From: Branchiostoma floridae
Taxonomy: Eukaryota; Chordata; Leptocardii; Amphioxiformes; Branchiostomatidae
DNA: 64,000 nucleotides
Assembly: GCF_000003815.2 (NCBI RefSeq)
Contig: NC_049992.1
Coordinates: 21,028,698-21,092,697, forward strand
Reading direction: 5' to 3'
In this document: positions 1 through 64,000 of the stretch, one piece after another
Layout of the letters: each line of letters begins with the position of its first letter
How positions within the stretch are numbered: position 1 is the first letter of the stretch
Translations under genes and position numbers: made by a program
The notes under the pieces: generated by a model
Told to the model about the DNA's origin: nothing
Seen by the model: the letters and a program-made list of their open reading frames with translations, nothing else
The model's database searches: none

Positions 1-423
1 ACCTGGTACCTCCACATTCCCCAATGTCGTCACGAAGAAATTCACGCCTAGCCAATGTTTTATTCTGTTAAAAAATAAAACATGTTGTAATGGCCAATAT
101 ATCATAGCGGTTCATCTAAGTAAAGTAAAAATGGTTAAAAGGAATGAGCCAAGTCTGCAATGATTTTGCCAACTCAAACCTCAATCATCATCTCGGTATA
201 AGATTGTTGCATTAACATATAGTCAGGCTAACCAATAGATGTTACTTCCTTAATGCAGACTGATCTTTTCACCTGTTATTTAGCCAGCGTTCCGTAAAGG
301 TTGACGTAAAATCGGTATTAGCAACAAAGGACCTGAAGTTGACAGACGCATCGGAAGTATATTCAGCGGAAACGTCTCTTTTTGTCAATAGGCCTGCCAC
401 CAAGGTAGTTCCATTTTTCACTC
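1..423 (-). CDS. Exons 71-72: last segments in the window, still open
   Basis: Exon 71 (273-423, 151 bp, 1/2) reads VKNGTTLVAGLLTKRDVSAE, SDASVNFRSFVANTDFTSTF, then TERWLNN. Exon 72 runs from 47 past base 1 and begins REFLRDDIGECGGT after completing an arginine codon in phase 2. Neither has a stop codon, transmembrane segment or polyadenylation signal, so the 3' end of the gene is outside the window. Confidence 0.6.
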
Positions 424-3400
424 CTGCAACACAGAATTATTGCTTATGATATGCACAGAGAACGTAAAAATATGCTAGTTTTATTTCAATAGCTACGATG
501 TGAGCATGTGAACAGCTTAAAGCCAAATAATTAACAATATTCTCTAGTTTCAGAATTTTAATCAATTATAAGATGACCTTACAAACCTCTGAGTCAGTCA
601 TTGTTTAAAAGTGCTAGATAGATATTAAGATGTGGTTGTGAACACGTGTAGTTGTCAAACTACAAGTTACCAAACCTCACATTGTATACGCTTTACAATA
701 TATTACCATAATGCAATATATCAATTAAGACGCCAAAATAAAATTACCGATGTTTTTTTTACTAAGTTTTCATTCTATGTAACTGTTGATTTGCCCTATC
801 GTCTAGATAGTTAAACTAGCAATATTGTAGAAAGACTCCAAGGCTAGGATACACACTTACCGATGAATGGAATTTTACATCGAATTCGAAAGCGGGAAAA
901 TCAAATATGTCCCCAACCTTCTTTTGTCCTTATGGCGATGGTTTCAGATGTTGGCATGTTCAGCATGATTTTTGCACTTTCGCCATGACGGGAGGTTCCA
1001 GCTTGATCAGACGGTCCTGTCAGGTAAATGAAAAAAAAAAAAAAGAATTAATCCTAAGTTAATTTTGTTAGTGTAACAACCAAATAAACATATATTGTTA
1101 AATCATCATTATCACATAATTATATATTATTTGTCAGCTATTGGTTGGGACGACTTTAGTCTAGTTAGGCACACAGGGCTGCAAATTTCATTTACGATTT
1201 AACGTGGTCGAGAACCTCTTTGTACACAAGACCCTTTGTTTTGCGTCCTCTCAGAAATACGTGTGTAGCCCTAAGCTAGATGCCCTAAGCATGACTAAAA
1301 AGGTTTTCCTGGTAACCAACTATGTTGAATCAATTAAACTTTTGGCCTATTTGCCTACTATTATTGTATCAAGTTTGAAGGATGAAAGAAGTGTAATACA
1401 GAAACTTACGGATGTAGATGATTTTTTTGGCTTTGACATCTGTGCACTGGTGGGCACCGTTACACACACGGAGAGTAGGGAACAGCGTTCTAAAGGGTAA
1501 GACAGTGTGGAATGAAATGTTGCACCAGATAGACATGGAGAGGAGCTTTGTACTTGCAAGCGTAGTTTTACATTTTAAAAGTTCATTAGACTTCTTTAGA
1601 GAAATACTCAAAAGAACTAGAATATCACTTACTGTATCATTAATACGCCATTGATTTGTATAAATTCGTGTATTCAAATAGATGTATGAAGCATAGCAGT
1701 TTTCTCTAAAGTGTCTATAGATGCGTCATACCGGTAAGAATACAGGCCATAAATTCGACATATTAATTTTATCATTACAGCTTATCTATATTGATAATAA
1801 CCATACACATGTATGTATGTATGAAGTAACCATACATTAATACTATAGCATGCACGGATCAAATATCCAAAAACCATCGCCGCCTTCTTAAGTTAAACAA
1901 GATCACGTGTTACTAAGATCACGTGCGAGGTTACGTTTTGAAGTGATTGTTTATCTGTATTGATCCTAAAGAAGGCAACAGTGATTGTTGAAATTTGATG
2001 CGAACATACTTTTGTGTTGGATGACAGTTTAGCTTTGTACTGAAATTGGGCAGAGTTACTCTCACGTATGCGTACCTCCCAGGCTCCATGTGGAAGTCAC
2101 TTGAATCTGCCTCTTCCTCTGGACTATCCCGTTGCAAGTCAGAAACGTTAGAAACCTTCCCATGTGTTTGAATGGTTCCATTTACAATGATCACGGACCC
2201 AGAACCACCGCCTCCGACCCGGGTCAGTGGAAGGACGTCATTCATTCCATTAGCGTCACTGCTCAAACTGAAAACTAAGTTGAAGAAAATGCATTTTTTC
2301 GAGGAGCATATTGACATTATGCTAAGCAGATAACGTTGAACTAATGCTTCTAACATGTGACTGCTTTTACAATATAATACTACATAATGAGATGTTTTGT
2401 TTAACAATATGAGTTATACACTGTTGGTAGCCGCGTTTTTTTCAAAATTGAAGAAATTAGTAGTGTTTAAAAACACTACTAACCTTTTGTGGTCACTGGT
2501 AAAGTATGTGTATATGAATATAATATATTGTAGCCCAAAGTTCCATAGTCTGTATGCTTTTGATGTTCTCTATGTAAATAATTATGCAGAATGTTACTTT
2601 GTAGTATCCTTTTCAAATTAAAAAAAAAGTACACTTAATTCTTATAGCGATAATTACTTACAGGTTGCTGTGATGCCTTCCTCTTCCCGTGGAGTTCCCC
2701 AGGACAATCCTGCATAGCTGAGGTCAGTGATCATGACCGTGTCATCAATATGCACATCTTCTGGTAGGGGAACTTCCTCGCCAAACGGAACCGTCGTGTT
2801 TGTGTGAGCAACGTCTGGATTTCCAAAGAGGACTGTTACACCTAAAGAATCAAGGAAGAAAAGCGATTACATAAGTGATTACTATAAGACTATAAGTGCT
2901 ATATTGGCTAATAAGCTTGTACAAACGATGCATATTTTCTCAAGATGCTGACGATAAGCAAAACATTAATTAAAGTCCATTCTATCATGACAAATATCTA
3001 CAAACCTTGCACAAAGCTTGTATAGGATTTTGAATCACCTGATGTCATTACTGTAGATTGTAATCCTGCCCCGTTCACAGCCCTTAGAGTGACGTAATAT
3101 GTGGATCCGTGAAGTAGGTGTCCTTCAAGGTCAGAGTTCACTGCTAGGACCTTTAGTCCATTTGACCTAAAAGGCTGTACGTCTGTTCCCCCTGGAGACG
3201 TTCCTATTGCCCAAAAGTACTCCACCACCTGCAACAGACACAAGCTTTTAATATTTCTTATCATTAATTTGCAACCATTTTTTTCATGCCCTAAAACTTT
3301 TCGAAAGAGCACGGTTGTGTTATCAGATCACCTACCTGGCTTTCTCTATCGAAAGCCCTGTACCTAACAGCGATGGTACTGTTGCTTCCTTGGAAGTCGC

Positions 3401-6400
3401 TTATCTCCTCATCATCCCACGACATGTCCACATGGTAAATCTTCTGTATGTCCGGGGGTGTCACGTCTATGTTCACGCCATTAGAGGACGACATAACCAC
3501 ACGACCTGATCCTGTTGATTATAGAGAAACTCGATTAGCAACGTATATTTTGTTTTTACAAAATATATATAATGCACAATGCGACTAAGCATATGATGAT
3601 CATGGATCAAGAATATGTCAAACATATGAAGAAAACCCGTACAATTTATGCTTATTGGAATGATAGATGCAGTATATCTTTCTTTTTGTATATCTTATTC
3701 GAGGCAAACATATGAAAACCTAATACAGGCTGGCTTCATGAACATACCTGACACGGCTTTCACTGTGATGTAGTAGACCGCAGCACCGTCTGTAACGTTT
3801 ATATCATCCAGCTGCTTGAAGCTGACATTAGGACTGAGTGTCAGGTTGTCTATCCTGACATGGAAGGCTGAAGTGTCCATGCTCGAACAGTCCGGGTCAC
3901 AGTCGAACTTGTCACATGGCTTCAGACAAGGCACGCAAGGACGGGCGACCTGATGATAAAAGTAATGGTTTTTGATACGTCATTACTAAAATGAACGCGC
4001 TTTCTAATTCTAATTTAAGCGTGTTATGACGTACAGAATGGAATTTCAAAACAATTTTAGATCTGACTGACTTCACGAAAAGGAGCGACATCATCCTTCA
4101 GCTTCTCGGTCCCCACCCCTGCGTAGAACACGGAGACACTGTTGTCCCCGGGACGGAATGGGTCTCCATAGCGGCACAGGTTGTCTGCGCTCGGTGGTAA
4201 CCTGCGAAACATTAGTGTATTTTCTTTATCGGTACCATTGCGGAAAATTTCTAAGGCAGGGGCGCATTATGTCTGTCTTTCGATTGAAAACAAAGACAAC
4301 CTGGTTTTGTACCAAGAAATAAACTGATTTCATACATTTTAAGGCATAATTTATCAAATTAATTTTGTAATTTGTAATTTTCCTTTGTCCTTTCACTGCC
4401 CCCAATCCAATAATGGATCATCCTACGAACATGCATATAAAAGATTTTATTCAATGTTGCCCTGTATGATATAAGTACGTTTTCAAAAGACGGATTCAAA
4501 TTTCTCTAACCTCAGGTGTCTGAAAAACGCCGTAGCTTCAGGACTACTGAATACGTCTTGCACGTCAGGTACGAAGTCGTCCCGGTTCCAGACGGCCAGG
4601 GTGAGCCGGGCTTGGTCACTGAAAACTGGGATGCCGCTCATGATGGCCTGAGATCTGCCATCTATTATTAGTTCCAGGTTCCAATCCTCCTACATAGAAA
4701 AAAATGGTTTAAGGGATTATATGTAAGGTAAATATTAAAGATTGTAGCTGTCTTTACGAAACAAATTACTCACCTGGATCTCAGCGGCGCCTAAAGACTA
4801 GTTCTTAGAGCACATGAGACCTAAGTTAGCCTCGTTGGAGGTGTCGGAGCACATTGATACAAAACCTCCGGGATATTTCATCACCTTGGACAACGCACAG
4901 TTATTGAACATTTTGTGTTGAAAGACAGCTAAAAACCTCAATATATACCATCACAAATTAGCTTCCATACTAACGTACGATACATATGTAGTTAATAAAC
5001 GGTTTAAGATATATCACGGACACCTTGTTTAAAGAAAATCAGTGTATCCAAATTTGTATTTGAAAAAATGTTTACCCCCACAGCAAATGTCCTCTCTATA
5101 GTAATCTTCAACTCATAAGTGTGCCATCCGACTGTTGGGTCGAAGTCTAGAGTGATCATCTCTTCAACTGGCTCAACTGTATCGTTCTCAAATCGGCACC
5201 ACAACAAGGCATAATTCCCCTCCAAATCTCTAGTCACAACATCTACAAAGTACAAAGAGTAAGGGATGTGAAAGCTATTAAAATTAAAGATATGTGTAAA
5301 TTTAATTAGTGAATTGAAACAAAGAGTAAAAAAATGCGTGTCAACTGTAAAAGACATAAATAAACCCTGTACAAACTTATTGTAAATGTATAAAGTGAAA
5401 GATTTTTGTTACGTGGGTGAATTTGAAATCCACATCCTCTATATGGCACTTTTGTATCAGTGTGGCCACCAGAAGGTACGTTATCTTCAACAACCGACTC
5501 GTATTCCGTTGTAGTCATTGAGTGTGCAGACACAGGAGTGGCTGAACTGTCGAGTTGATATTCAGCGCAGTTGCACAGGCATCCATCTTGTCCATCAGGA
5601 GCTAATATAAAGTAAATGGTTATCATCGTTTCAACTTTGTCATTATATTTTGTCATCCTCTAAAGCCATGTTACAAAAAGAAAACAATAATTACCCTACG
5701 TATAAAGACAATATGAACATTAAACATAGAAAGGAATAGATATCACATTTGTGTATAGACTTACCTGTGGTTGAGTTTGTTAGTCCTGTGTTATTTGCTG
5801 ACCTTCCTGTGTTGTTTCTAAGACAACATGTACAATCTTCAGGTCCAGCTTCTTCCCGAGCCCACTGCTCTACTGGCGCCTCCAAGTCTCCCACCACACC
5901 TGCCGGGCCGTCCCAGAACACAACACTGGTGACGGCTTTGATGTCGCCGCTCGCAGCGATCATGTCGAACCTGTAGGAGCCGCCTCCCTGCATGTCTGCC
6001 CGGGTGGAGTACGCACCTGAGTACATCCGTGTCTGTTGTATGTCTCTAGACATGGTGATGGACAAGCCGTCTTCACCAAATGTCACCTTAGGTTTCAAAA
6101 AATGTAGAATGTCTGTTGTATGTCTCTAGACATGGTGATGGACAAGCCGTCTTCACCAAATGTCACCTTAGGTTTCAAAAAATGTAGAAAAAGAGCAATA
6201 AAGGATGGAAAAGGAACGATGAAAAAAGAACAATTCAGATCACATATGGGATGATTATTGCAGCTGACTCAGGATAGAGTATCTCTTTCGCTATCTGAAT
6301 TCCTCTCCGTTATTTTCTAATTATATGATATGCGTCTCAAAATCAACCGCACCTCATCTGGAGTGAACAATATCCTGTGGTCACTAAGTAGACCATAAAC

Positions 6401-9400
6401 AGAGTCTGAGGAGACAGAACTCCATCCAGCTTCCTCGCTCTCCATGAGGTACTGACGGGAAGGACACTTATCACCATCATGGGTGGGCAGGTAGATGAAC
6501 GTTCCTTGGGTCGAGAGGATAAAATGTATCAATACGAAACTTCATTAATGCCAATATATTGAAATAGGCACACTAATATTTTATGTTGGTATTGATATAA
6601 CAATAAAATGGAGCTGAACATATCTATACGTCATTTAATTTAAGCTTTAGACAAGATCGCACGTAAAAGACGTATTCAAAAACAGGTGTACCAATGGCAA
6701 AACACTAAATTGAATTAAGGCTTTTTTGACAAACAGAGAGAAGAAGCAAGTAGAAGTCTAGGCCTAAGGCCTCCGCTGCAGTTAAGAGCAGCATCGGGAG
6801 TTCCACAATAAACCGTCCCGGGCACATTGCTATATCTCTCCTTCACATAAACGATTTGCCAGATAAGCTCGATTCAAATGTGAGTTTATTTGGCAATAAT
6901 TTCTTGTTACAATTCAATATAAACAACCCAGAATAATGGCAAAGAAAATGGCTTACGTAAATTATAAAATCATGAATAGGAATTCTTCTTCTTTCTCACC
7001 TTCCATGGTGGTTGTTGAACTTTGATGAGTGACGTCACTGCTGAAGTCCCGCCCATCTTTAACCGTTCCACCAATCGGATCCTCCAGATCCAGCAGGACG
7101 GGTGGGGACTCCGTTATGATTGACAGACCTGCCTTGTTGAAGGTGCGCAGCCTCACAAAGCACGGAATACCGGGCTTGGTAAAAAAAATGTATAAACAGT
7201 CGTGATGCTAAGTGAGTATTTAAAACAATAAACAGCCATGAACCCATGACAGAAAACAATAAGGTAAAACCTATCTGCATATGTAAAAGCTATAGATATT
7301 GCCTACCTCAAGCGTGATGTCTGTCATCGTGTATTTTGTGTCATTGAAAATAACAGGTACAAACTCCGTTTCTTGGAACCGTTCATCAGAGTCCTCTGTA
7401 CAGGCTGTCCCTGAGAACACGGCGATCTCGTAATGACCAATGCCGCTCTCAGGATCAGAAAAGTCAGCCCAGGAAACATGCAGCTCATCCGTTCTGCTTG
7501 AGTAGGAGACAGACTGTGAAATAAGGAAAATACAAACAAATTAATCCTTTGACAGAATGGAAAATGAGGATATTTGTAAATACAGTAGTTTGCAGATCAC
7601 AACGTTTCCCCACCAACATAACATAATCGTTACAGCGAATTAGTATAATGTACAGCGTCATGCTTTGTATTCACTAGCGTTTCAACGCAACGTGTCATGC
7701 TTCCAACTATTGGGGGTAAATGTTATCTATATTACGTTTACACGTAAATGATAATTTGTATACCGACTTTCTTAGTTACCTACTTTNNNNNNNNNNNNNN
7801 NNNNNNNNNNNNNNNNNNNNNNNNNNNNNNNNNNNNNNNNNNNNNNNNNNNNNNNNNNNNNNNNNNNNNNNNNNNNNNNNNNNNNNACATTATAGATCAG
7901 ATAGATGTTTTTAACATGATAGCTATGAGTCCATGCCCATTTCATGTAAAATCCTAATGCAAAATTCAACCCTAAATCTTGTTAAACACAATAACGTTAC
8001 AAGAAAAATTGAGTTTTTAAAAGAACACCAGCTTTAATTTCATATTACTTAGAAACGAAAACAAATACATTATAAATTACGTTTTTTTTCTCTCATTGAA
8101 TGTGACAGGATAAGCGTGAATAACCTATATTTACGAAAAGTAACACTCGTCCATGTTAGACAATGTGATATAACTTTACAATGCGACCGAATTCACCAAA
8201 ATCAGTTGATAGATATTTTTTCTGATTTTTTTAAGAAGCATAAAAAAAACCTAACCAGTTTTATGCAATCCAGCTGTGTTAAATTCCCATCCAATGATCC
8301 GACTCCCCACTGGCTGTATAAGACTGGGAGGGCGAAAGCGAACCCTTCCCAGGAAAAGGAAATTTCATCGGTAGAAGGGATGAACCTGTTGATGGAAGAA
8401 ATGTCAGGAGCTTGGATTTTAGTTCGTCCATTCTGCTCTACTTACATGTACATTACGATTACAAGGGGGTAGGGCTAGGGTTAGGGTTAGGGTTATGATA
8501 GGGGGGTATGCTGAGGTGGAGATAAACTCTTACAAAGTGTCATTTTACAAAAAAAATGTCAAGTTCAAAGGCAAACAGCTGTTGATTCGAGTTGGCAAAT
8601 ATTTCTAACCTGTTGACGTTGACGTGTCCGACTGATAAGACCTNNNNNNNNNNNNNNNNNNNNNNNNNNNNNNNNNNNNNNNNNNNNNNNNNNNNNNNNN
8701 NNNNNNNNNNNNNNNNNNNNNNNNNNNNNNNNNNNNNNNNNNNGAGTCATGCCCATTTCATGTAAAATCCTAATGCAAAATTCAACCCTAAATCTTGTTA
8801 AACACAATAACGTTACAAGAAAAATTGAGTTTTTAAAAGAACACCAGCTTTAATTTCATATTACTTAGAAACGAAAACAAATACATTATAAATTACGTTT
8901 TTTTTCTCTCATTGAATGTGACAGGATAAGCGTGAATAACCTATATTTACGAAAAGTAACACTCGTCCATGTTAGACAATGTGATATAACTTTACAATGC
9001 GACCGAATTCACCAAAATCAGTTGATAGATATTTTTTCTGATTTTTTTAAGAAGCATAAAAAAAACCTAACCAGTTTTATGCAATCCAGCTGTGTTAAAT
9101 TCCCATCCAATGATCCGACTCCCCACTGGCTGTATAAGACTGGGAGGGCGAAAGCGAACCCTTCCCAGGAAAAGGAAATTTCATCGGTAGAAGGGATGAA
9201 CCTGTTGATGGAAGAAATGTCAGGAGCTTGGATTTTAGTTCGTCCATTCTGCTCTACTTACATGTACATTACGATTACAAGGGGGTAGGGCTAGGGTTAG
9301 GGTTAGGGTTATGATAGGGGGGTATGCTGAGGTGGAGATAAACTCTTACAAAGTGTCATTTTACAAAAAAAATGTCAAGTTCAAAGGCAAACAGCTGTTG

Positions 9401-12400
9401 ATTCGAGTTGGCAAATATTTCTAACCTGTTGACGTTGACGTGTCCGACTGATAAGACCTGCCCACCATACCCCACTTGTATACCGTTAGAAGTCACCTCC
9501 GCTACGGCAGTTGAAGCGCTGTGAGCTCTGACAGTGATGTAGTACGTTGCAGCTTTGGGTATAAGCTGTGAAATATAATGTTAACAACATTCGCCAATTA
9601 ATCCTCTGGTAAAAATCTTATACAAGGTGTCCTTAAGTCCTGTCTTTTCGAATTTTAATCTTTTATCTGGTACTTGTCCAAAGAATCAGACAGTGACTTT
9701 CTGACGGATTTTTCCTAATCTTACACGTTCATTGACGTGCGGAATGCGCAACACACAGTGCTGATAATAAGTAAGGGTCTTGAGTTCTGTAAAGCGACAG
9801 ATAAACGTTTCTAAATTTAAAGGGGCCGGTAAAACTATATAAAAAGAGCAGATAATATAAACTATGCCCTTCAGTATGCTACAAGCACCCATACAGTGCA
9901 CATCAGTGATGGCCTGGCTGAGAAAGTTTACCAAGTACAAGTTACTCTTCAAATCATGTTTGAAATCTAGAGACAAAAGAGAAATTAAAGTAAGACTACA
10001 CATAAAGAAGTTAGCTTGAAGAACGGTCAGCCTTTTTACCGAAAAACAGAGGAAAACACAGTTAAACACCGGAAAACACACGAAGGAGTGTATAATCTAC
10101 TGAAATACAGTATGTTTTGATGAGTAAACATGACAGGTCGCTATGTTTTGCCACAGAATAATCTACATATGCCCCTGGAATGAAGAGATCGTCAGAAAAT
10201 GCATGAGACGACGGGCCGGACCTCCGCCGCCACCCGGCGGACTGGACGTGCTGATTGTGCCAAATCATGTAACGTTGACGGCTACAAGAAGCAAGGTTTA
10301 TTAAGAAATACGGAAAACAGATTCCANNNNNNNNNNNNNNNNNNNNNNNNNNNNNNNNNNNNNNNNNNNNNNNNNNNNNNNNNNNNNNNNNNNNNNNNNN
10401 NNNNNNNNNNNNNNNNNNNNNNNNNNTATAATGTTAAGATCATTCTGTATGATTTGATAATGTTCCTATGAAAACCAGTACTTTGAACCAGTACAGTATT
10501 TGAATCTGTGACCAGTAATATGCTAATCTGTCTCTGACCATTGTTTCTAGCTGGTAGACAATCTGGGATGTTTTTGAGTTTATGTGGTTATGGGGGTCAA
10601 TCCACTATTCAAACTGCTGGACAAGTCACAGTGGGAGCACTTCCTTATTGTTCTTACCTTGGGCAAGAAATCCCCAGGTTTAAGGACAGCAATTCTACCA
10701 TGTCAAAGAGCAAAGTCCAGAATATAGAAACACAAAATCCTGGCATGGATACCTGTAAGTATTCAAACGTGTGAGTCTGGTTCAGCCCCACATTGACATA
10801 CGGATGTACGTTGTTCCTGGTTCTCGGGAAGCGGCGGTCAGTCCCAAGGGCTACTTCATAGTACTCTATGGTCTGTTCTTTGTCATCGTCAAGTTTTCCT
10901 TTAGATGAAACACATTTGAGTAAATCATGTTAACATAATCAAGAGTGTTACTAATATACCGACCATGACGTCAATAAAAGACGCCGGTAAACAGTTCTTT
11001 TTACTATGATCAGTATAAAAAAATTACATGTTAACAAAAATTTTGTCAAGCCAAAAAAAGCGAAAAATATTATAAACAATGCTTTTAAAAAAAGCTGGCA
11101 TTTTGCCAAGGTTTGCGCATATAAACTTTTTTTTTCTAGTTATTTGAATGTGCTGCAGGCTGCAAAATGCAAAAATACGCCTTTATTAATACACGTCGAT
11201 TGATATGAAGTGATTTTCGAACAGGTACACCAGATGCATATCGATGTGTACGAATCTAAAGCTAATCTGAATTTATTAGGATTCCTAATACATTTTCTAT
11301 ACGAAATCGGCGAATGGCTATTACTTTCATCACCTGTCTAGTATTAGATTTCTTCATTTCAAATACCTTTGACAGATATCCAGCTTCCTTAAAGCTTACA
11401 TGTCATTTATACATCCATGCATAGACAAGAATAGGCACAGACATCAATAAGAACTAGAAATGGTTCTCGATTCACCTTGCTGCCTTCTATCGCCAAAACT
11501 GTCCCAGTTCGCAGACAGTGTCGTGATTGATGGTTGGAAGTTGAGGTCATATCCTACAATACCTCCATCGCGAACCTGAAAATACATTTGAATTAGTTTT
11601 GGTTTTTAGTGGTGTTGGCTGTGTTTTCTTTCAGTCAATCATTCATAAAACTTCAATAATAATGTCCCTCATTAATTAAATGCACGTAAATTCAGTTTTA
11701 AATAGAGAAACCCTATATGGTATACATCTTGTCCCACGTAAGCATTTTCTGCCTCCTATTTTGTACTTTCTTTTACGTACATTGTAAACAGCAACATTTT
11801 TTCGCACTAAAAGATCCGTTCAGTTGACCAATATTTTACCGTCCATCATGTTAATATTACATTACGATGTTGGTTTTCTTCGAATGTTAATTCGTTTCAA
11901 CTGGATTTAAAAAAAGTTGTTTCTTTATCAATAAATGATTGCTATTTATGTTGTAGCTTTTGATTCATTTATCTCAAATTACAAATGCGGAGCAGGATGA
12001 CCCACCTCCCCAGGAATGAGCGGTTCCAGCATGACCGTGATGCCGTCCGACCTGACTGTGTACGTGAAGTTCATCTCGTTTGTAGCTCTTACAGCAACGA
12101 AGAACGTTTCACCGTCATGCATCTGCAGTTCATCGTTGTTGCCAGACGTTTGACCTTCGTATGAAAGCATGAAATATCGTATTACTATACATTATGACCC
12201 ATTGTTAATGATTAGTTGTTTTTCAACAATAAACATAGATGGTTTGATGATAAACTCAAAAGGTAACTTTTTACAGAATATTAGGTTACAATCATATAAC
12301 CATTTCACGTGATGAAAATTTCCAATTGTATTTGCTAAACTAATAACGTATTGCTTGATTTTATATTGACCTTACAGTTTCTAGTCAACTAACTTCAATA

Positions 12401-15400
12401 AGTAAGTTATACAAGTAAGTGTATTAACGCTGCCCTAATCAAACTAATATATATTCCTATGTTTAATTTTTTTTTCCTTATAGTGATGTTTGAGTTTGTT
12501 TAAAATGGCTATCCGTTGATGCTTAAAAAAGATTAAACGACTTTTACCCTTTATGTAATTTGATTTTCATTTAAATTTGATATTTTCTTGACCCGAAAAA
12601 ACAACAACAAAGTGTGTCTTTCATTGACTTAGCTTTGCTGTGTCCTCTGGTAGTAAAGATAAATCATTCTACCTGGAGGGACTTCAGTAAAAGGCTGCAT
12701 CACGGTACCGTCCACCTTCAGGATACTCCACTCGTACTTAGAGATGGGACACGGGTCTCCGCTGAAGTCCCAGTGGGCAGACAACTCCTCATTGTGGTCT
12801 TGATAATCCCTAAAAAATACATCCATATAAAGTTACAAGAATTCTATTTCCTTTACTCCTAAAAGATCTTTGAGAACAATGATTCGCTAAATACATTGAC
12901 ACCCTTTAATAATGAACTTAAGTGCTGTACTTACAGATCCTTAGTTGGATATTCTCCATCCCAAACCCTAGTGTCCCCCAGTGGCGGCAGTCCGGAACTC
13001 ACACGGCTGATGTAAACACCGTTTGAGGTGGAGACGGTTAATAGACCTGAGATCGTACGTAAAAAAAACGAAAAGGAATTTAGTTATCCATTATATGATA
13101 TTACCCTAATCGTTCACGTCTTCTGAAAGCACAAATGCCCATCTAATTAGAGACCTTAGAGGTAAAGCCGACGACCAAAACGTGCCTTACCCGCAGCATT
13201 TGTTCCACGTACTGTAGCAAAGACCTGTCGGACATCTGTCAGGTCCAGGCCTGATATAACGATGAAATTCTGTCCTGTTTCCACTGGTATAAAGTCTCGT
13301 AGCTGACCTCCACCGGCACTTGTACCGAGCGCTACTTCGTATCTATTTGGAGTAATTAAAAAAAAAGCCATCACACAACAAGGAATTATATCAAAAACGT
13401 TCATTTTTATCACCAATGTCACAGCATTTCCGTGCATTACTGTAAAAAGTTGCAGAAACTAAAAAAAATCTATACTGATTACCTTCTTTCACTATGATTC
13501 AGTTAGAAGTTAATAGAAGGCATAGAGCATGTTTTACTAGGTGTATTTTTAGCGAGTGACCATAGTCTTACCGTGAGATGGGACTTTCGGGGTCAGGAAA
13601 CGGTTCCCATGCCACAGCAACTTGAGTAAGAGATTTTTGACAATTCACATCAAGAGCAGCACATTCTGTTTGTGAAAACGTAAAAGGAACAAAAATGAAC
13701 TAAAAAACAAATAAATAAGTGCACAACGTTTCACAAGTGCAACGCGGGTTTTTTTCAGTTAGCAAATAGATAGCTAACTCTTTTTATAGGGCCATATAAC
13801 ATGTGGTATTCTTTACAAGAATTACTATTCAGATGACACCGCAAGCAGCTGAAGCGCATAGCCGGCTACGTCTACCCCAACTTCATCAGCAACAAAAACA
13901 TCTACAAGCAGTGCAAAACGTCTCCACTACACAACGAAGTACACCGCCGCAGATGGCACCTTTTTGGACACATTCTATGTCTGAGTCACCACCTGCCTAA
14001 AAGGCTGTCAACATCGCCTTCAGCAAGAAACTGGCAACCTGGCTGGGTAGGCCCCGCGAAGGCCTTTTAGACTGCCTGATTGACGACGTGAAACTGTATT
14101 TCAATCAGAATGTCAAGATGGCACCTTACATGCTTAAATGGCTGCGGAACCAGGCAGCAGACAAGGCACAGTGGAATGGGATGTACAGGGACATTGATGA
14201 GGACACACACTGATTTGGTGTGCCGATCAGTAAGAGCTGTACATTTGCAACTAAGACCAGTATATATTGTATCCATTAACTTGGTCTAGTTTTTTTGTCA
14301 TAAAAGTTTTAGAAATAACCAACAACCTTGTCTGGATGTGCAGGTAACCACGCGTTCTCCTTCTTTGCTAGTCCTATTGACCTCTTCAGTTCGACTCAGT
14401 TCTACAACTTGACCAGCTATTGGCGGGGTATTGTCTATTACGATTGGTCCAGAATAGGCCTTCTGGAAGTCCCCAACAGCATTGTAGCCAATAACAGTGA
14501 CGTAGTAGATCGCATCATGTATGACTGTTATACCTGAAAAATAGTAAACACTGTAAATGCCATTTTTTCCTTACCTGTAATGTACCTGGCTTGTGGAAAG
14601 ATGGTATTATATTATGAAATCAGCTATGTTATTATTAAGTATTCACCTGAGACAACATGATTTTGTATAAATTGCAATCAGAGGTCGGGTAAGATCACGC
14701 ACCCCTAGGACTATAGTGAGTTTCATGACTGGGGATCCGTGTGAAGTTAAAGATGGAGTCATCTCCCTCAGCTTCCCCAACACCAAACATGTAGTACTGG
14801 ATGGTGCTTTCCGTATCGTAGAACCCGTGCCAGTGACAGGACAGCTCACTGGAGTCTTGTATAAACTGGGGACAGAAAACCTCACCGGCAACAGGAGGCG
14901 TCTCGTCAACAGTCAAGCTGCCCGAGATAGCACGTCCCCAAAGACCAACCTGGTAAGAGGAAGAACATGTGATACAAGCGTTGAATTAACAGCCCCCCTC
15001 CCAAATGCTACATTTCACAAGGCTTCACAATACATCCCTTGTTTACTGACTCTTTCTTCGGCTCTTGTCATCTCGGGAGACGAGATCTCTGTCAGTTTCT
15101 GACTAAGACATTGGAATAAGGTGCATTCTAAATATATAATTTTGGATTTCAAAGGGGAAAAACTCCAACGGAAGTAGTAATGATATGCTTCAGTAAAGTA
15201 CTAATTCTAATAAGTTCCGATTGCCAACATTTTAAAAGTTTTTATATGTAGGTAGGATATGACTTACCACATTCATTGCAGACACCGTAAGGGTATTTGA
15301 TGCCCCGTCTCTGATAGGTTTCACCAGAGAGTTAGGTACCGACGTGTCTGTTGTATTCGTGACTGGGTAAACATCACAGGCACCGGGGTAACTTCCGTAA

Positions 15401-36400: not shown

Positions 36401-36600
36401 CATTGTATATGTCTTAAAACGAATGCGGGGAAATTCGGAGCATTAAGTCAGTCCTTATAACTGTAACTTTATTGTAGGCTTAAATTGATTGTACATTTCA
36501 TGAATATTGGGGATGTGATGGAGTCATTAATTATGAATAATTGCCTTAGGAATGTGTTCATGTTATTGACCGAAGGAATAACATGACAAGGAATAACAAG

Positions 36601-36682
<82 letters not shown>

Positions 36683-44728: not shown

Positions 44729-44797
<69 letters not shown>

Positions 44798-50700: not shown

Positions 50701-53700
50701 ATGGATTGGTTTCATACTTGTTGTGTTGGTGGGTTGTGATGAAAGCTCGAATCGATAAGATTTTGGGAGCCATATCTGTCGTTATAATGGATGTAATAAT
50801 ATCAGAAATCACCCCTATATTTGAGATATATTGGTACAGGCATCGTGCTTTATGTGTTTGTTAATGGGCTTATCTCCAAGCAGATGGTGAGGTGACAGCT
50901 GTTTGGGGAACCCCGAGTTTTTTTTAATATGATAATTAGTTTTATTTATGTCTGCTTAGGATATCATGGAGATGTGAAGCGTAAGTATAATTGTAAGAAG
51001 TTGAGGTACATTTAACAATAATGCTTAACAGGTATGGATGTCTCACATGCTGTACTGCTGATTTGAGTGACGTGGTGATTAAAATACCATTAGGTCCTCT
51101 CATCTGGGTTGGATGTCAGAAGTTTTATGGGTGATACAGATGTTCTGATTTTGTTACGATAAGGGACAGTTGTTAGTTGTCTCTTTCGTAGCCAATGGTA
51201 CTTGTTTTTCAGCAGACGGGGTTGGCGCCAAGTATTCATCTTACAGTTGGTGTAGGGCTGTCAGAGGAAAGTGTGCATCTCGTTTTTGTACCGTGTGAAC
51301 AGCTGATGTTATGACATATTGGTGGAAAATCAAATCACCATCTGACTAAAGTTGGCCACATCCCTTCATCTTTCTGAGTTTCCCAACTTCCTCCCACCAC
51401 ACAGCTCTGAGGCACATAGTCAAACCTCAATAATGCTGACAACCTTAGACATTTTAAATGCCAAACATCAAGCTTAAGGAACACCACGCTACCATATGCC
51501 GTCGACCTCTTAAACGCACATTACACAATTAGGTGTCACATTTTGATAATTACTAATCCGATGGACATCCTCTGTGTCATTAAATAAATACACCACTACT
51601 TTCCCATAACATTTATATTATATAACCATTACTCTCAAATACAACCGACTATAGACATACATACCATCCACAAAAAAGCAATAAATATTTGATGGAGGTA
51701 TGAGGTCCCCGAACTCTAGTATTTAAGTGTTTTAGATTATGTTATATGTAATATTATTTTTCTTGTTTGTGAACTTCGCTTAACAGAGGCTCGGTGACAG
51801 CTTGTGTACTGATGACTGCTAAATTCTCCCAACAGCCGGATTTTTCCAGCTGTGGGCCCCTTTACAGCGTTCTATCTGATCCCATCATATATGGGTTGCT
51901 TCCAAATAAGGCTGAGATGCAAATCAGGCTGACGCAACGCCATGCCCGCAGACCGCTTGAACACGTGAACGCGGAAGTGACTTTCCCAGCTCGCGAGGCA
52001 TGTTTTCGAAGGCCATATCTAAACAATCTTTTACCCCCTTTTTTACCCCTTTTTTTTTACATTGGCACGGCCCCTATACTACATACTACAATTCTGGTAA
52101 GTTTGAAGTTCTAGGCCTTCCTAGATTTTACACGGCGATCGATTGAAAATCGAAAAACTCGTACCTGAAAACACCGACGCCGCACCCATGTGCTCTGCAT
52201 TTGGAAACCCTACAGTAATTGACCACCTCCGCAATGTACGGTTTGTGGAAAAATCGCAGCCCGAGATAGCGGACAGGCAACGGGCCCCAGCAGGACCTGG
52301 ACTTAATTGACCACTTCCGTAATGTAAGGTTTGTGGAAAAAAATCGCAACTCGAGATAGCGGACAGGCAAAGGGCCCCAGCTGGACCGGGTCCTAATTGA
52401 CCACTTCCGTAATGTAAGGTTTGGTATAAAAATCGGGAGCCCGAACTAATTGAAAGACAGGCACAAGCACAGGACCTGGTCCTGACAATGACCGTAACAT
52501 AAGGATTGGTGGAAAAACTTGGTTGCGTGTGTCTTGTTAGAAGGACCACATGTGCTAATGCCGTCATGTAAGGTTTGCTTGAAGACTCTGTCCCTTGTTA
52601 GGCTGTGTAAGGTTTTGGAAGAAGGGTTAATGGAAAATGTGTATACTGTCCCAGCCCAGGTAAAATATCATTCTATGTTAGGTTTTCTGTTAGGTTTGGA
52701 AATGCCCCATGTTCCACAATGTCCAATTTCTTGCCATGTATACAAAAATACACACAGCTACAATTCGTAGCTTGGAAAGCTTTCAGAATGCCCTCTATCC
52801 CCTTATCAACCATGTGGATCTTGTATTGGAGTTATCTTGTCAAGTGACGACTAATAGACATTGTAACGTAACAAGAAACAGTCATAAACTGTCCCTGTTT
52901 AAGATGCTGTTTTGTCCGCCTTTCTTTCAGTTTTTGGCACAATGTAGGATTGTAATATTTTAATATCAATTACCAGTGTCGGAGGTAGTATATCTGCGAA
53001 GAAGGGCGTCGCGTGGCCCGGAAGTCTCTTTTCCGGATCTTTTTAGTTCCCATCGCAATTGCTCATCCGTCATGCTGTTAGGTAACTTACAGCCACCCAG
53101 GAACATCTGGATCAAAAAAAAAGTTTAAGCATTATATCTCGTCCCTTCCAATGAATGGATAGCTAGTAAATGATGCAAAACATAGTAGTAAAAGAAGGAT
53201 TCAAAACATTTCTAATGAATCACTTTTTGCAAAATTGTCATTTCTTCCGCCGTAACATGGTCGTAACATGGACTGCAAACGAGGTAGAATGAAGAAACTG
53301 TGCAAATTTTATGTGAAGAAGTAGCTCAAAGAACAAGACCTCTAAGATATTGATTATATGTCGTAGTCCGTCTCCGAGTCCTATCAGATCCAGGGTGCCG
53401 ACAATTGTTGACACTTTGATGTCTTGAAGCTTTATAGAGAACTTCTCTGATTCGTCTGGTTCATCGTCAACTCCAAGCGTTCCAAGAACATCTGTAAAAT
53501 GACATAATTTTAATACATTATTGTGCCTATTATGGGACAGAGAAGCTAACTACGATGCTTGTTTTAATGGCAGTTTAAATATCATTTATGTCTAACGTCA
53601 CATGTATAAGTTATGTACAACGTTTTCAAGTACACCTTCACGTAAATTTTTTTTTTACTATTTTCTTCCGTCTACTCCTTACGAATGATGTTAATGACTT

Positions 53701-56700: not shown

Positions 56701-59700
56701 GGTACCTTGGTACCAAGTGACAGCCAAACGATATCATGAGCACTAGTTATACATTTCTTGTTACTTCTAAGTGTATCATGCACGCCCTGCTGCATTTCGA
56801 CTGTGTTCGTGCACGTTCTGCATGCCATATATCAAAGATCAAAGATCCAGCCACACTTCCCTGAGTCACACTGTACACATACACAACAGACACACGTTAC
56901 CCGAAACCACAGCATACGTGACGTGACGTAATAAAAACGCCGCAGCCGACATTTTACGTGCAAATAAAGATCTGTTACATCAAGAGAAAACTTGAAATAC
57001 TGCATGCACGGAACGTCTCCAACTCTTAGTGTACTCATTCTCTGTCTTTGTATTGGTTCATTTCCATACTACATTGATACCATCAATTCACCATTGCATT
57101 TACAAGAAACTTGGTATATTTCCCCACCCATAAAAGCTTGACTACGGCTGTATACTTAGTATTCAAGACAAATACTTGCCACACTAGTGCTGTAAAAAAA
57201 GAAGTCTTTAATGCTTTCAAGTAGTGCCGAACCAGCCCCCCCCCCCATAATTAAAAGCCAGCCAGTCTGCGAAGGAGGCTAAAAATACACATTTCTGATA
57301 ACATACTACTATGAAATGTTTATATACTCCCTACCTGATATCATCGAATTATACGTTCTTTGATTTATACCTCCTGAAAAATGAGTAGTAAACACGGGGC
57401 AGATTCTTAATTTGTAGCCAAGTCTAATAGTTTTCTGGAACGCCACAAAACACCGGCCTCAAGCGGTCCGCCACCCAGCCTGCAGGAAGCTCGGACTATG
57501 TAGCGGTGGAGCGCCTCAAACGACGTGCTGCTGACGGCTCGTGGCTTTTCAGTTCAGACTGGGAAGGAGTTGTGAAACGCCACATGACAGAGAGGTGGCC
57601 CAGAATCATGTTACGTGGCGCAGCCGTTATTGTCCTTTCCGAACGATTTTCGTGTCGACTACGCGCAATTCGGGTTAACGGCGGCCATTAGGGGTAAAGA
57701 GGAAGGTCGGGGGAACAGATGAAGTTCAGCGGGGGTTAAGGGGAAGTCCGTGGGAAAGGTGAACGGGTAGGGGGAAAAGCTGAAGCAGTTATGTGGGGGT
57801 GTTAAAACTCCTCAAGTTATATGTTGTAGATCTTATATCACATACTGCCACTTATTGCGAAGCATTATTTGAAGTTGCCTGTTCAGTATGAGCAAAAACC
57901 TCACCATAAACGTTAGCCAGTATCTGTCACATTCCTGAATCCATCCTGGTTGTTCGTCTTCTTTCATTATTCCTGGAGGAGGCACGTATTTGGTGGGATC
58001 CACATAGTTGATTGTTCCATTTTCCCTGATCGCAAAGTGGATGGTATTGTTTACGCAACCTGTAGAGCCTGCTGTACCAATGGCATCTCCTTTATGAACC
58101 TGTATGATGAAACAAGAAATACCTGTATAGCAAAGGTCTTTCTTCTCAACCACGTTTTTTCAAGAGCCGACCATTGTCGTCTTCTTTCCCTTCTTTACGA
58201 AAATGACTGGTTCACTTTTATTATTTGTCAATGTCAAACAATGTCTATGGGATATTTAAGCGATTAGAACCGCGATAAATCATTGTTGCTCAATGTCAGG
58301 ATACTGATTCACAGCTCAGCAGTCAATACTGGATGAGAATCGATTTTTGTTCGTAAGCTACATACAAAAGCACAATGTCATATCGAATCCCTTTAATCTA
58401 GACTCCACCTTTCTCAACCAAATGACCTAATCTTATCGCTTTTATGAATCTATAGGCCGGCTCAAGTCGGTGACANNNNNNNNNNNNNNNNNNNNNNNNN
58501 NNNNNNNNNNNNNNNNNNNNNNNNNNNNNNNNNNNNNNNNNNNNNNNNNNNNNNNNNNNNNNNNNNNNNNNNNNNACATGTCAATTCTTTCCGATGGGAA
58601 CTATTTGTTCCAATTATTTATTATTGTTATAGAACTATTTTTACAACAATAACTCCTAACTGCAGTGCAAATTGAACAAGTCATTATCATAAAAGCTCAT
58701 CTGTGTTGATATTACTCGTAGTACAACGCTGACTTTCTTCCAACACAAATGTTGCGTAATTTCAAGGAATTCTAAACGTTTTAATTGTAATAAAGTAGTA
58801 CCCTTTGTCCAATTTTGATGGTATCTTTAACGTCGATGCCCTCTACTACTGCCTCCATGCCGTTTATCTCTTCTGTAAGGATAGAGATGCTCTGTTGTTC
58901 GACAGAGGTAATCTTCCCCGCAAACGGTGCAACAACCTTTGAAATATAGATAAAGGTAAACATTTAAAACTATATATATATATAGAGAGAGAGAGAGGGG
59001 GGAGGGAGGGAGGAAAAGAGAGAGAGAAGTGTGCACATTGATAGTAAAATTGAAACATGCAGATTTTATATACAAGTATACACCCATCTTGCACCCATCC
59101 TTCATCTTAGCTTTCATATATGCATGGGATACAAACAAATACTCGTAACATTACCAGGGAAATAGATACCTTACCTCCTCATCTTTAGCTAGTATCAGGT
59201 CGATGCCTTGACTGGCGTATCTTGTTTGGCCGACTGCTCTACTGGGATACAGGCCGCCTCCGCATGTTTCAGGATCCAGCTTCTGCTTGGGGAATTTCAT
59301 TGACGCCTTTGGTCCAAAGATTTTTTGTATGAGTCCTCGTGCAGTTTCGTACCTAAAATAACATTTAAGTATCACACGTTACCATATTAATGTTAGGCTC
59401 AATAGGAGTGAGCCTGTCGCATAAAACACCTTTCAATTCTGTAGTCACTATCTGGAATATGGTACAAAAACAGCATCGACAACACTAACCAAACTACACA
59501 ACGAGAAACATATATAACCAAGAACAAAGAATTATGAGTCTCATTATTAGAAAAAAAGACGATGCTTTTACATCAGAAAATTTTATTGTACTTGCTACAC
59601 TCAGAAAACTGTATCCAAGATGTAATTGATTTAAATTGTCTACATACCCTTTTTTCAATGACTCAAAACATTTCTGTATAGACTTGATAGTGCCGACTGT

Positions 59701-60937
59701 TGACTCGTAGGCATCCAGGAAAGGTCCAACTAGCTTTCCGATTTTCTCTAGAGGCTCCTGTAGTACCCCTAAAGCTTCATTCACCACGCGGACTACTTCG
59801 TTTCTGGATGATTTCTAAACAAATCATTGACAGCAAAAATTAGTTATTTGAAGCTTGCTTAACATTTGAATGAAATTTTCACCTTAAATTACACCAAACA
59901 ACATGTTACTTAAGTAACTGGATCAGATTTTGCTGGATGTTTAACCTTAGTTGAGTTAACCTCATATTAACATTAATACCAAACGTACAGATTGTGTTTT
60001 TCCCCTTTTTGTATTTGTTTTGCTTGCATCAGATTATAGAAGTGCTATTGATAGATTTTTTTCTTATTTTGATGCAAGTCTAACATACCATGTTGCCAAA
60101 AGCGTCTTCCAACACTCCGTCCGTATGTTCTCCAAACCCTTCTATCCATTCCGGAGCCTCTTTTTGAAACAGATTCCACACTCGCATGAAGTCGTCAAAC
60201 AACTCCTGTATTTCGTCACCGACCTTTAACAGGAAAGGCTGCATTCCTGTTGTGAAATGATAAAAACAATGAAAACGTACAAAATTTAGTTGAATACAAA
60301 AAATGACATGATAACGATGCAGCAAATGGGATTTATGTTAGACAGACGAAGACCAAACAATTAACCCCTTGCATCATCTACATAATTAATGGAATTTTTT
60401 TCTATTCTGTATCTGTTAGACGCAAGTAGTTTTACTATAAATCAAAACGTGTGTCTGCCCATGCAGATAAATGCAATTCCCTCCTCAAACAACTAATCCC
60501 GATGGGTGAGGTCTTATGGGAGACGGCGTTTGTTTTGTTCAAAGAGTTTAACAAACCTTCCGTAAACGAGAAGACGTCATTGGTAAGATCCTTGACGTCA
60601 ATCAGAGCCATTACCGCCTTGTAGATACTGGAATAACAAAAGACGGAACGTCAAACCATGTTTAATTTTTGTTTGAACCTTTGTTTACTTATGAAAGCCC
60701 AAACCGGCATGCATGCCGTTTTTCATTGAGGTCATGATGTAAGTGGCAAGGGTAATACGACTGTAAAAAATATACATCATGCCTTATTAATGGGGGCGAT
60801 ATCAATAAACTCACACCTTACTCTTTTATCAATTAGTACATTGATTGATGTTTTATTAACCACACCTTAATAGTGTATCTTCTTTTTATCACTGTGTGTG
60901 CGAAAACGTGTGTACTATGTATGCATACTCGTATGTG

Positions 60938-60987
<50 letters not shown>

Positions 60988-63900
60988 CGTATGTCTGAGA
61001 ATATGTCTGATTTTTGTGTGTATGTATGTGTGTGTGTGTCTTAGGAGCAAGCGGTAGCAAGTGCAAGAGAGCATATGCTTGAGCAATTTGTGTTTTAAAG
61101 TGTCTCATCTTTTTAATATATTTATATGTGACAGGTATCATACTTATTTACACACTAAAGCCAAAATGATTAGGTTGTTGTGTTGCCATGTTTGATTCTA
61201 GTTAAACATCATACTCCGATAATAATGGATGAGACATACTTGTACACTGCCTTTACAATGTTAGCAATAGCCGTCTGTGGAGACTTGATGAGTTTAGGAA
61301 CCTCCTGAAATATTGTCTCCAAGCCCTGCCAGATCTGCTCGACTGCCCAAGGGATGACCACGATGGCAGAGTCTTGAATGCCCTGCAAAAGACGCATTGA
61401 TAACTACTCCTCCTTTCTTCTACAAAGTTTGCACTAAGAACATTTGAAAGACTGTTTTCTATAAAATAAAGTAAAACTGCACATGAAATTTCAAACGAGG
61501 TGACTTTAACTATGAATAAAATTGACACAATATTATAACACCAGACATGTATTCCCTGCTTCTATTACAATATTTAAGATAGTTTGCGATCAGAATATTA
61601 GTTGTGTACTCATTTTTTTGTTTAGTCAACATAGGCAATATAAGAGATTCATTTAAAATGAACATTTTCGCATTACGTATATACGACAATAAAAGAATAT
61701 AATATTGTTAAAAATAACTTACACTGAAAAGATTCTTGGCATCATTCTTCACTTCAGTGAACACTGCGTTCACTCTAAGCATGACCTGCCTTGTCTCTTC
61801 GATAAAACTTGGCAAGTTGTCATATGCGGCGACTTTTTCCCAGGTCTCACTCGCCTGTCTGTTAAAAAGAATATACATTTTATCTTGTAGTAAATGGCTT
61901 GACCGTTTATAAGACATGAACGTAATTCATGACTCAATGAGAAATGCATACGTACCTTGCCATGCCTTGTATTATGTCAGGAAGGTTTTGTACTGAATCA
62001 ATGATGCTTTGGAAAAGTTCCTGCGGCGTAGTTTCGGACAGAGTATCAAAAAGACGCTGAAATGTTTTCACTGTGTCTATGATGTCACTTATCACCCCTG
62101 GCACGTCTTTAAACCATATGTTGATCAGCTCCAGCAGTTCATCAAACGAGAAATCCTGTAAAGTAACCAACAGATCTTCATTCAGCCATGCCTTCTTGCA
62201 AAACTAGTATTATCATATAGCCGGGCGCGGCGGACTAATTAGAAGGTCATAACGCCTGGTCCTTTCCTATAACCACAGAATAAAACGACAGAGTGAGCGA
62301 AGCGAAGGCGTTATGACACCATATACACCTCGGGGCAGGTTATCAACCCTAAACTATACACTCGTTTATACTTTTATGCTTTACAAGATGATAATATCAC
62401 TTCAATAGGATACTAGTGAGTTTATTGCCAATCAAAACCAATGTATCGTATTATTTTTTTAAATCATGCCATAATTAGCACGCAGTGTATTCACGATTTC
62501 ATCAAATATAAATTCAACTGACATTGAAACTGGTTGGACAGACTATGTTGGAAAAATACAACTCGACAAGGCGGGTCTCTACAGTATACTCGATTTTAAT
62601 AATGTGTACCGGTCATTTCATTAGTTTTGACTTTCGGGCAGTTTGGCTTATGTCTCTTTTGAGTCGCAATGCCAGTGAACCCTTGCCTTGGCAAGGGGTA
62701 TGTTCGGTTTAGCAAAGCTAAGGCAGCGTCCAAAAAACAAAGTACACATGCAGATTTACAAAGTAGCTTCTAAATAGTTTTTGTTGTAAAGATACCCTGC
62801 ACTTGCCTGTAGGATGTTGATCTCGTACTTGATGCCACCTCTGAAGCAGATTCCAGCATCAATGAAGTCAAAATCTTCCCNNNNNNNNNNNNNNNNNNNN
62901 NNNNNNNNNNNNNNNNNNNNNNNNNNNNNNNNNNNNNNNNNNNNNNNNNNNNNNNNNNNNNNNNNNNNNNNNNNNNNNNNAGTCAGTAAGATAAAAAAAT
63001 ATCAACGGCCGTTTGCTGCCTTTTCTACACACACTCATTAGGAAAGGCTGATTACCAGAACATCATCATGCATGCATCTCCATTAGGACATGCGTAGGTA
63101 CCTGTAATTGTCACAGTTTTATGGTATACATTGCTTTTTTAACATTACTTGCGATTAAATGGCGGTTAATAGGCCTAGGGAGGCAACATAATGTTTTAAC
63201 AGTAATATGTGTTTCTAAGTATAAGACATTGGGTAGGACTCTAAACAAAGTGAGGCAGTCAGGAAACTATAGGTTTGTCAATCTCAACATATGCTCAACA
63301 TATGGTTCGAAATTATCACAATAAAGAGGTTGCGAATCTTACCAAAAAAATGATTTGTCTTCCTTTTAAAATTAAGACCGCTGCGGTGCCATCACGAAAC
63401 AATAGTAATATTCCATAAATCACTTATTCAATCATTCCATAAATGCATAACGTTTATATCATTATATCAAGATCACAGTCACGACGCATCTCAAAAACTT
63501 ACCTATGTTAAAGTCAAAAATGTTTCTAACAACGAGGCCAAATTCTGCTCCGATATCATTTGTTCCAATCTTCTTCTGCCAGTCTATTCCTGGCAAATTC
63601 AGGCACAACTCGATTGGCTGAAAAACAACAATGCATATAACCAAAGTATGTATAACCGTAACCTCTCTTTAAAGAAAAAGACACATTGAAAGATGTCTCG
63701 AATTGCATTGCTCAACTAAGTTACTTGTATATATCACAGGATTGATAACAAACTTGTCCCAAAACCGCCCTGAATGGAAAAGGCTTGCTTCCCAATGTGT
63801 CACTAGAGAAGCGAGTCGATTTAGGTATTAGTAACCTTATGAGAATACCAAGAGAGTGCTGTAATATTGTGGGATATGGAAATGTTGATATATATATATA

Positions 63901-64000: not shown

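Follow-up and report, generated by a model that had tools for sequence, protein, structure and literature searches.

The minus strand of the 64,000-base lancelet window (the whole stretch of DNA that was analysed) probably carries one very large gene for a modular adhesion or recognition protein, secreted or anchored at the surface, which would include a pseudo-M23 domain and be something other than an enzyme. The supported domain order runs from amphipathic helices through a Peptidase_M23 domain, a sub-threshold SAP motif and a PAN domain to 14 FN3-like units. The final exon chain comprises 72 exons with 11,205 coding bases, or 3,735 codons, and holds 0 in-frame stops, against 200 and 222 in the other two frames. 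GC content at third positions is 0.525 vs. 0.376 in introns, and introns of phase 0, 1 and 2 number 26, 29 and 16.

10..63617, minus strand: modelled gene of 72 exons (3,735 codons), with neither start nor stop found
63531-63617, 61956-62155, 61723-61858, 61240-61382, 60557-60627, 60089-60246, 59648-59757, 59175-59352, 58802-58936, 57905-58099, 54364-54439, 53340-53491, minus strand: exons 1-12 of the curated chain
52974-53106, 49202-49420, 48919-49019, 45563-45686, 44952-45118, 44362-44518, 44120-44190, 42409-42566, 41481-41682, 40977-41201, 40513-40719, 40233-40350, minus strand: exons 13-24 of the curated chain
39902-40086, 37597-37720, 37255-37429, 36797-36883, 36254-36348, 35804-35974, 34749-34929, 34274-34440, 30709-30882, 30191-30379, 29683-29862, 28773-29017, minus strand: exons 25-36 of the curated chain
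27694-27815, 24517-24685, 17642-17801, 17328-17493, 16944-17022, 16407-16545, 15589-15838, 15268-15445, 14703-14949, 14327-14533, 13572-13665, 13191-13342, minus strand: exons 37-48 of the curated chain
12935-13046, 12673-12809, 12006-12154, 11476-11575, 10753-10898, 9426-9565, 9072-9201, 7307-7513, 7000-7174, 6353-6504, 5765-6086, 5434-5601, minus strand: exons 49-60 of the curated chain
5076-5242, 4511-4689, 4072-4201, 3748-3949, 3336-3511, 3039-3228, 2662-2841, 2076-2274, 1410-1489, 918-1016, 273-423, 10-64, minus strand: exons 61-72 of the curated chain

Exons were called with a semi-Markov model that used generic codon and splice tables, was self-trained on the window sequence and allowed a gene to start or end anywhere; its output on the minus strand was 92 exons. 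Manual curation took out nineteen of these, judged to derive from repeats or to be antisense to a LINE, and left 73 exons with a single phase break. In six of the seven removed groups the remaining neighbours kept their phase, and the seventh left that sole break, between 48919-49019 and 44952-45118. Adding the hand-picked exon 45563-45686 and dropping two exons that lie in an assembly duplicate gave the final 72. The main point of the earlier note, an in-phase chain of minus-strand exons, was thus borne out; that the count equals the 72 reported there may be partly coincidence, the two lists having been compared by number only.

The exons removed as antisense to the LINE or around it were 48132-48394, 47990-48056, 47416-47585, 47181-47317, 46677-46792, 46460-46525 and 46213-46330. 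Exon 45563-45673, in another phase (4 of 14 parameter settings), was replaced by 45563-45686. Those discarded because they lay in or beside repeats or were unlike their neighbours were 57176-57266, 56364-56572, 56112-56288, 52165-52296, 50464-50529, 32618-32717, 32472-32521, 27330-27399, 25999-26144, 19993-20097 and 10222-10281. Several of the removed exons were often picked by the model (56112-56288 in 13 of 14 settings, 52165-52296 and 27330-27399 in 11, 46677-46792 and 46213-46330 in 10), so the exon list is a matter of judgement.

The retained exons were mostly stable: 54 of 72 were picked in every one of the 14 settings, and the other 18 in part of them or, for 45563-45686, in none. The weakest besides this one were 63531-63617 and 57905-58099 (6 of 14 each; a variant of the latter ending at 57900 was picked in the other 8) and 10-64 (8 of 14). 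No initial or terminal exon was picked on the minus strand of the 64-kb window in any of the 14 settings. The modelled gene is open at both window edges, and the window holds much of the gene and neither end. Both ends of the chain are uncertain, as 63531-63617, 1410-1489, 918-1016, 273-423 and 10-64 were picked in 6 to 11 of 14 settings.

The alternative that deserves most attention, which we nevertheless regard as unlikely, is that the model joined two same-strand neighbour genes, an upstream one with the helices and the M23, SAP-like and Cys-rich parts, and a downstream one with the beta-rich part, PAN and the FN3-like repeats. The sole phase break left by curation sits at this 49.0-45.1 kb join, which the automatic chain had bridged with LINE-antisense exons, and a LINE fragment lies within the interval. 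Chimeric gene models are also documented in lancelets, including a Lectin_C/fn2 case (PMC4967905, in the part of that paper available to us). The exon that restores the phase is the following.

45563-45686, minus strand: candidate exon, phase 0 to 1, score 11.3, hand-picked, 0 of 14 settings

This candidate has the required phase of 0 to 1 and joins openly, which speaks against two genes. It reads IYLAVKVCAKDICLPP..., is Cys-rich as are its neighbours, and closes the phase break; the Cys-rich region appears to cross the join. Candidates antisense to the LINE in the same interval outscore it, and its choice is therefore a judgement. The best alternative start at the join, MDMTLADLEKELFFF, was judged unlike a signal peptide. 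We also ran a split test with free gene ends, trying splits at up to three positions per intron of the 73-exon list. None of these raised the score. The smallest penalty, 3.4, was for a split within an FN3-like unit; splitting at the weak 3' end cost 3.5 and at the join 4.3. The cost of splitting at the join is thus small, but a split inside a clear FN3-like unit is cheaper still, and 4.3 is no evidence for a boundary. One large gene rather than two is the most likely arrangement, and the exon model alone is insufficient to decide at 49.0-45.1 kb.

Upstream of the join, the single-gene model encodes three recognisable elements.

59292..62155, minus strand: N-terminal helical region, aa 30-322, with strong amphipathicity (100 degrees per residue)
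57974..59264, minus strand: Peptidase_M23/LECT2-like domain (aa 332-448, hand-set; Pfam stretch aa 349-435), PF01551 E 1.7e-10
52984..53073, minus strand: SAP-like motif (aa 559-588), PF02037 E 0.00076, 19.5 bits

The mean helical moment of aa 30-322 is 0.431 vs. 0.208 in 200 shuffles (z 10.4), compared with z 0.2 for the FN3 stretch; Pfam and NCBIfam scans returned no family above cut-off for this region. The PF01551 match reaches 41.4 bits against a cut-off of 28.7 and covers profile positions 3-92 of 96, which places the next domain in the M23 fold. The fold half of the former "LECT2/M23-like" label therefore stands, for a domain that is catalytically incomplete. The SAP-like motif at aa 559-588 has 19.5 bits, which fall below the Pfam cut-off of 23.9, short of membership in the SAP family. 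SAP domains are usually nuclear, an odd fit in a secreted protein.

Active M23 enzymes carry the motifs Hx3D and HxH, and LECT2, which lacks the catalytic His, is termed a degenerate fold; such folds have roles other than catalysis (all from the part of PMC9662197 available to us). In the present domain the two motifs are replaced by SQGID and TIH: the first zinc His has become Ser and the catalytic His Thr, with the Asp and the last His kept. Only two His occur in the whole domain, 408 and 427; neither is positioned four residues ahead of the GID Asp, and neither comes first in HxH. A still active peptidase, carried by a large secreted protein, is very improbable given these residues, although the family match is strong and M23 peptidases, from E 0.00043, are its best PDB chains: by the motifs given in the same part of PMC9662197, both the first zinc-binding His and the catalytic His are missing. 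LECT2 chains 9non and 5b0h were found at E 0.81 and 0.85, aligned to residues 17-89 of the 121-residue query. LECT2 ranked behind several M23 chains and some unrelated ones in this search, and in a second PDB search it was at E 1.5 with unrelated chains above it. The domain is probably a binding module rather than a cutter, as in LECT2.

Between the SAP-like motif and the FN3-like row lie two regions without a family and a PAN domain.

45588..49418, minus strand: Cys-rich region (aa 593-731), exons 49202-49420, 48919-49019 and 45563-45686, no Pfam family at E 0.1
41559..44410, minus strand: Gly-rich, possibly beta-rich region (aa 832-965), no Pfam or NCBIfam family
40264-40611, minus strand: pre-PAN stretch resembling an earlier part of an FN3-like unit, profile 47-76, E 0.091, weak
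39902..40084, minus strand: PAN domain (aa 1176-1236, hand-set), PF00024 E 8.3e-7 and 2.2e-8
37377..37720, minus strand: post-PAN stretch resembling the second part of an FN3-like unit, profile 78-112, E 0.081, weak

The Cys-rich and Gly/beta-rich stretches up to aa 965 had no match in Pfam or NCBIfam, in keeping with their previous description as an unknown Cys/Gly beta region; the beta character of aa 832-965 is a reading, and a possible one. The PAN domain proposed for this locus was confirmed at 29.2 and 34.3 bits, above the curated PAN_1 cut-off of 21.4.

The rest of the chain is dominated by FN3-like units.

34883..36320, minus strand: FN3-like unit (aa 1375-1469), E 2.3e-14 with a profile untrained on the unit
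30872..34834, minus strand: FN3-like unit (aa 1486-1573), E 1.9e-6 with a profile untrained on the unit
9479..30838, minus strand: ten consecutive FN3-like units (aa 1585-2730), by profile
9111-9439, minus strand: truncated FN3-like unit (aa 2744-2778), E 0.0011
7106..9101, minus strand: FN3-like unit (aa 2782-2883), E 4.7e-13 with a profile untrained on the unit
4198..7000, minus strand: region between FN3-like units (aa 2919-3249), called ConA/GH16-like in the earlier note, without profile support
2834..3467, minus strand: FN3-like unit (aa 3374-3483), by profile

Eleven units were cut by hand on motifs, and each was left out in turn and scored with a profile of the other ten. The left-out units scored 16.8 to 77.9 bits, and all 11 exceeded every one of their 100 shuffles, none of which went beyond 6.4. 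Three more units were then found with a profile not trained on them, at the E values given above, for a total of 14. By profile, FN3-like units number 14 or more in the predicted protein, with ten of them consecutive. Against the roughly 15 repeats claimed before, 14 are supported, and six further places are weak or partial: aa 1137-1166 (E 0.091), 1254-1288 (0.081), 2744-2778 (0.0011), 2889-2918 (0.024), 3337-3371 (8.3e-6) and 3576-3626 (0.0018). The stretch aa 979-1102, FN3-like by eye, was unsupported by the profile (one place, E 0.81).

Pfam fn3 matched one segment at E 2.6e-11 with 44 bits against a cut-off of 25, over three stretches, and a second segment at 20.4 bits, below the cut-off; Pfam and our own profile thus both find repeated FN3 units. 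Taken singly, 3 of 11 units match PF00041 at E up to 1. Searched against PDB, the FN3-like profile found 101 sequences at E ≤ 0.1; among the best 60 were Dscam, fibronectin, contactin and many engineered monobodies. Searches of PDB sequences with the remainder of the protein gave chance-level hits only.

The row of FN3-like units is indeed interrupted, by aa 2919-3249, but the ConA/GH16-like label for the intervening region did not hold: neither Pfam nor PDB sequences (E up to 1) gave a GH16 or concanavalin-like match over it. The idea that this region and PAN are each nested inside an FN3-like unit was tested by joining their flanks. The flanks match complementary parts of the profile, with 7.3 + 8.1 bits around PAN and 11.2 + 19.9 bits around aa 2919-3249. 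The joined flanks, at 7.3 and 17.6, did no better than the stronger half alone; 200 doubly shuffled joins reached at most 2.2 and 2.4, and joins with only the first half shuffled reached 11.3 and 17.7. As the true joins are no better than the half-shuffled ones, insertion of PAN and of aa 2919-3249 within FN3-like units stays a suggestion.

The window contains five gaps of 100 N and one near-perfect duplication.

7927..8643, no strand: duplicate block, 99.86% identical to 8744-9459 over 717 aligned bases

The two copies flank the N gap 8644-8743, and the first starts 40 bases after the gap 7787-7886. The block is probably an assembly duplicate, either an unmerged haplotype or a misassembly; being taken as such, its exons 8256-8385 and 8610-8641 were omitted. 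The FN3-like unit at aa 2744-2778 is cut short and the next unit lacks its beginning, with two N gaps and the duplicate between their exons (7514-9071). From this, one exon is probably missing from the assembly between 7514 and 9071.

The window is rich in repeated DNA. On the plus strand, 46972-48445 is a disrupted retroelement of non-LTR-like type that includes an endonuclease part (PF03372, E 1.5e-5), located in the interval of the phase break; one stretch of it resembles a reverse transcriptase, the piece scanned having no Pfam match. An intronless 392-codon ORF inside an intron (38385-39563, plus strand) has no Pfam family above cut-off and presumably belongs to a retroelement protein. 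At 17859-24277 lies a unit of 6.4 kb whose inverted ends are 762 nt long and 97% complementary. It contains tandem arrays (periods e.g. 78, 85, 168 and 184) and occupies the greater part of the intron that separates exons 24517-24685 and 17642-17801. The unit at 42726-43986 has 107-nt inverted ends, starts with TACACTC and finishes with GAGTGTA; these ends, with TA on both sides, resemble those of a Tc1/mariner-type element, and its minus-strand ORF 43313-43735 had no Pfam match at E 0.1. An intronic unit of ~1.6 kb (56158-57754) has inverted ends of 149 nt at 85% and 111 nt at 99%. Smaller repeats touch exons: an exact 80-base tandem copy (6030-6189) lies over the acceptor of exon 5765-6086, and since 80 is not a multiple of three, the copied acceptor, if used, would shift the frame; six copies of a 52-base tandem repeat (16651-16962) overlap exon 16944-17022. 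The window had no tRNA under a bacterial setting and no Rfam family at gathering score.

The chain was compared with chance by running the same self-training pipeline on both strands and on 12 Markov-generated windows. The minus strand scored 670 with 80 exons and the plus strand 258 with 35, against scores of 0 to 30.2 and 0 to 8 exons in the generated windows; we attribute the plus-strand score to antisense shadow together with retroelement. Since phase is imposed by the exon model, the analysis was rerun with phase ignored and generic untrained tables. Across six exon costs, 56/98, 51/79, 43/69, 36/63, 32/58 and 26/42 neighbour pairs were then in phase (range 0.55 to 0.65). At the best of the six costs, −11, the 51/79 pairs compare with 107/334 in 40 Markov windows (p = 3e-9), and at −9 the 56/98 pairs compare with 89/278 in 10 Markov windows (p = 3e-7); at −7, 242/676 pairs were in phase in 10 Markov windows. 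The plus strand, with phase likewise ignored, gave 24/63 at cost −9 and 6/30 at −12. With tables trained on its own chain it reached 48/91, so trained tables are no fair test and the untrained ones were relied on.

A modelling artefact or a decayed pseudogene is hardly credible as the origin of the chain, even though a model can force exon chains, the present one was curated by hand, and five N gaps, one duplicated block and much repeated DNA lie in the window, since the generated windows fall far short of 670, neighbours agree in phase even when it is not imposed, domain hits and repeat units cross exon joins, and 3,735 codons are free of stops (openness and splice dinucleotides being partly there by construction).

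We return to one large gene and its product. The 3,735-residue chain contains 34 N-glycosylation sequons, 32 of them after residue 760, and 55 Cys. Its most hydrophobic 19-residue stretch is 1.54 on the Kyte-Doolittle scale, and hence the part in the window has no clear membrane span. The FN3-like and PAN modules, the sequons, the Cys and the lack of a strong membrane span would fit a secreted or distally anchored protein; together with the open in-phase chain, they favour the large secreted or surface-type protein that had been suggested. Signal peptide, anchor and both gene ends lie outside the window. In such a protein the FN3-like units may form a long glycosylated stalk, and the dead M23 and PAN domains could serve as ligand-binding modules, as degenerate M23 folds do in LECT2, EnvC and NlpD. 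The amphipathic helices might self-associate or bind lipid or protein, and the whole would be a long molecule for extracellular adhesion or recognition, not an enzyme.

As far as Pfam, NCBIfam, PDB and the literature tell, the combination of modules appears to be new, the modules themselves being known. The earlier note knew of no named family with this order, which is consistent with the searches of Pfam, NCBIfam (two stretches), PDB and the literature; among the papers found, most judged by title and the start of the abstract, none was recognised as describing it. No relative was found in viral contigs, prokaryote genomes or phage records, non-animal collections that are uninformative on animals. 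Unnamed large predicted proteins of several invertebrate phyla presumably carry similar stretches in a like order; if they are truly similar, the architecture would be old and not a lancelet novelty. Tentatively, the gene may represent an unnamed animal family conserved well beyond the species, in which a degenerate M23 domain (a fold of bacterial cell-wall peptidases) kept for binding, a helical head and an FN3-like stalk with PAN and another domain inserted make up a very large pattern-recognition or adhesion molecule.

In the parts of these papers available to us, PMC4967905 cautions that errors in gene models may lie behind novel architectures in lancelets and shows one chimera, and PMC4284660 argues for rapid domain recombination in lancelets, with M23, fibronectin and PAN absent from its main text; the main text of PMC9552553 is likewise without fibronectin or M23. 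For large lancelet proteins, predicted architectures have been doubted as products of faulty gene models (PMC4967905, same part), and the exon chain with its pseudo-M23 domain offers a concrete case. With it one can ask if animals have, beyond LECT2, recruited a peptidoglycan-hydrolase fold for recognition, and if the domain order is old and conserved.

Compared with known systems, the present domain resembles LECT2 in having an M23 fold whose catalytic His is missing. LECT2 is a small protein, with chains of 133-135 residues, whereas the domain here is a single module in a chain of >3,700 residues and has lost the first zinc His as well; several bacterial-type M23 chains score above LECT2 against it. 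As in PAN/Apple-domain recognition proteins, one PAN_1 domain is above cut-off, but the Pfam scans gave no serine protease or kringle domain here. Dscam, contactins and other FN3 adhesion receptors are close by profile, the best PDB match of the FN3-like profile being Dscam 7y8s (E 4.7e-10); in contrast to Dscam and contactins, no Ig domain is above the Pfam cut-off here, two Ig-like families lying below it. Tenascins are marked by EGF-like repeats and a C-terminal fibrinogen globe. Neither was found by Pfam in the part of the protein in the window, the true ends lying outside it. To our knowledge, M23, SAP, PAN and the helical part do not occur in tenascins or fibronectin, which are large FN3-repeat matrix proteins, and the present units are divergent, 3 of 11 matching PF00041 singly at E up to 1. 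What is common to both is the row of FN3-like units itself, and the profile built from it matches fibronectin chains.
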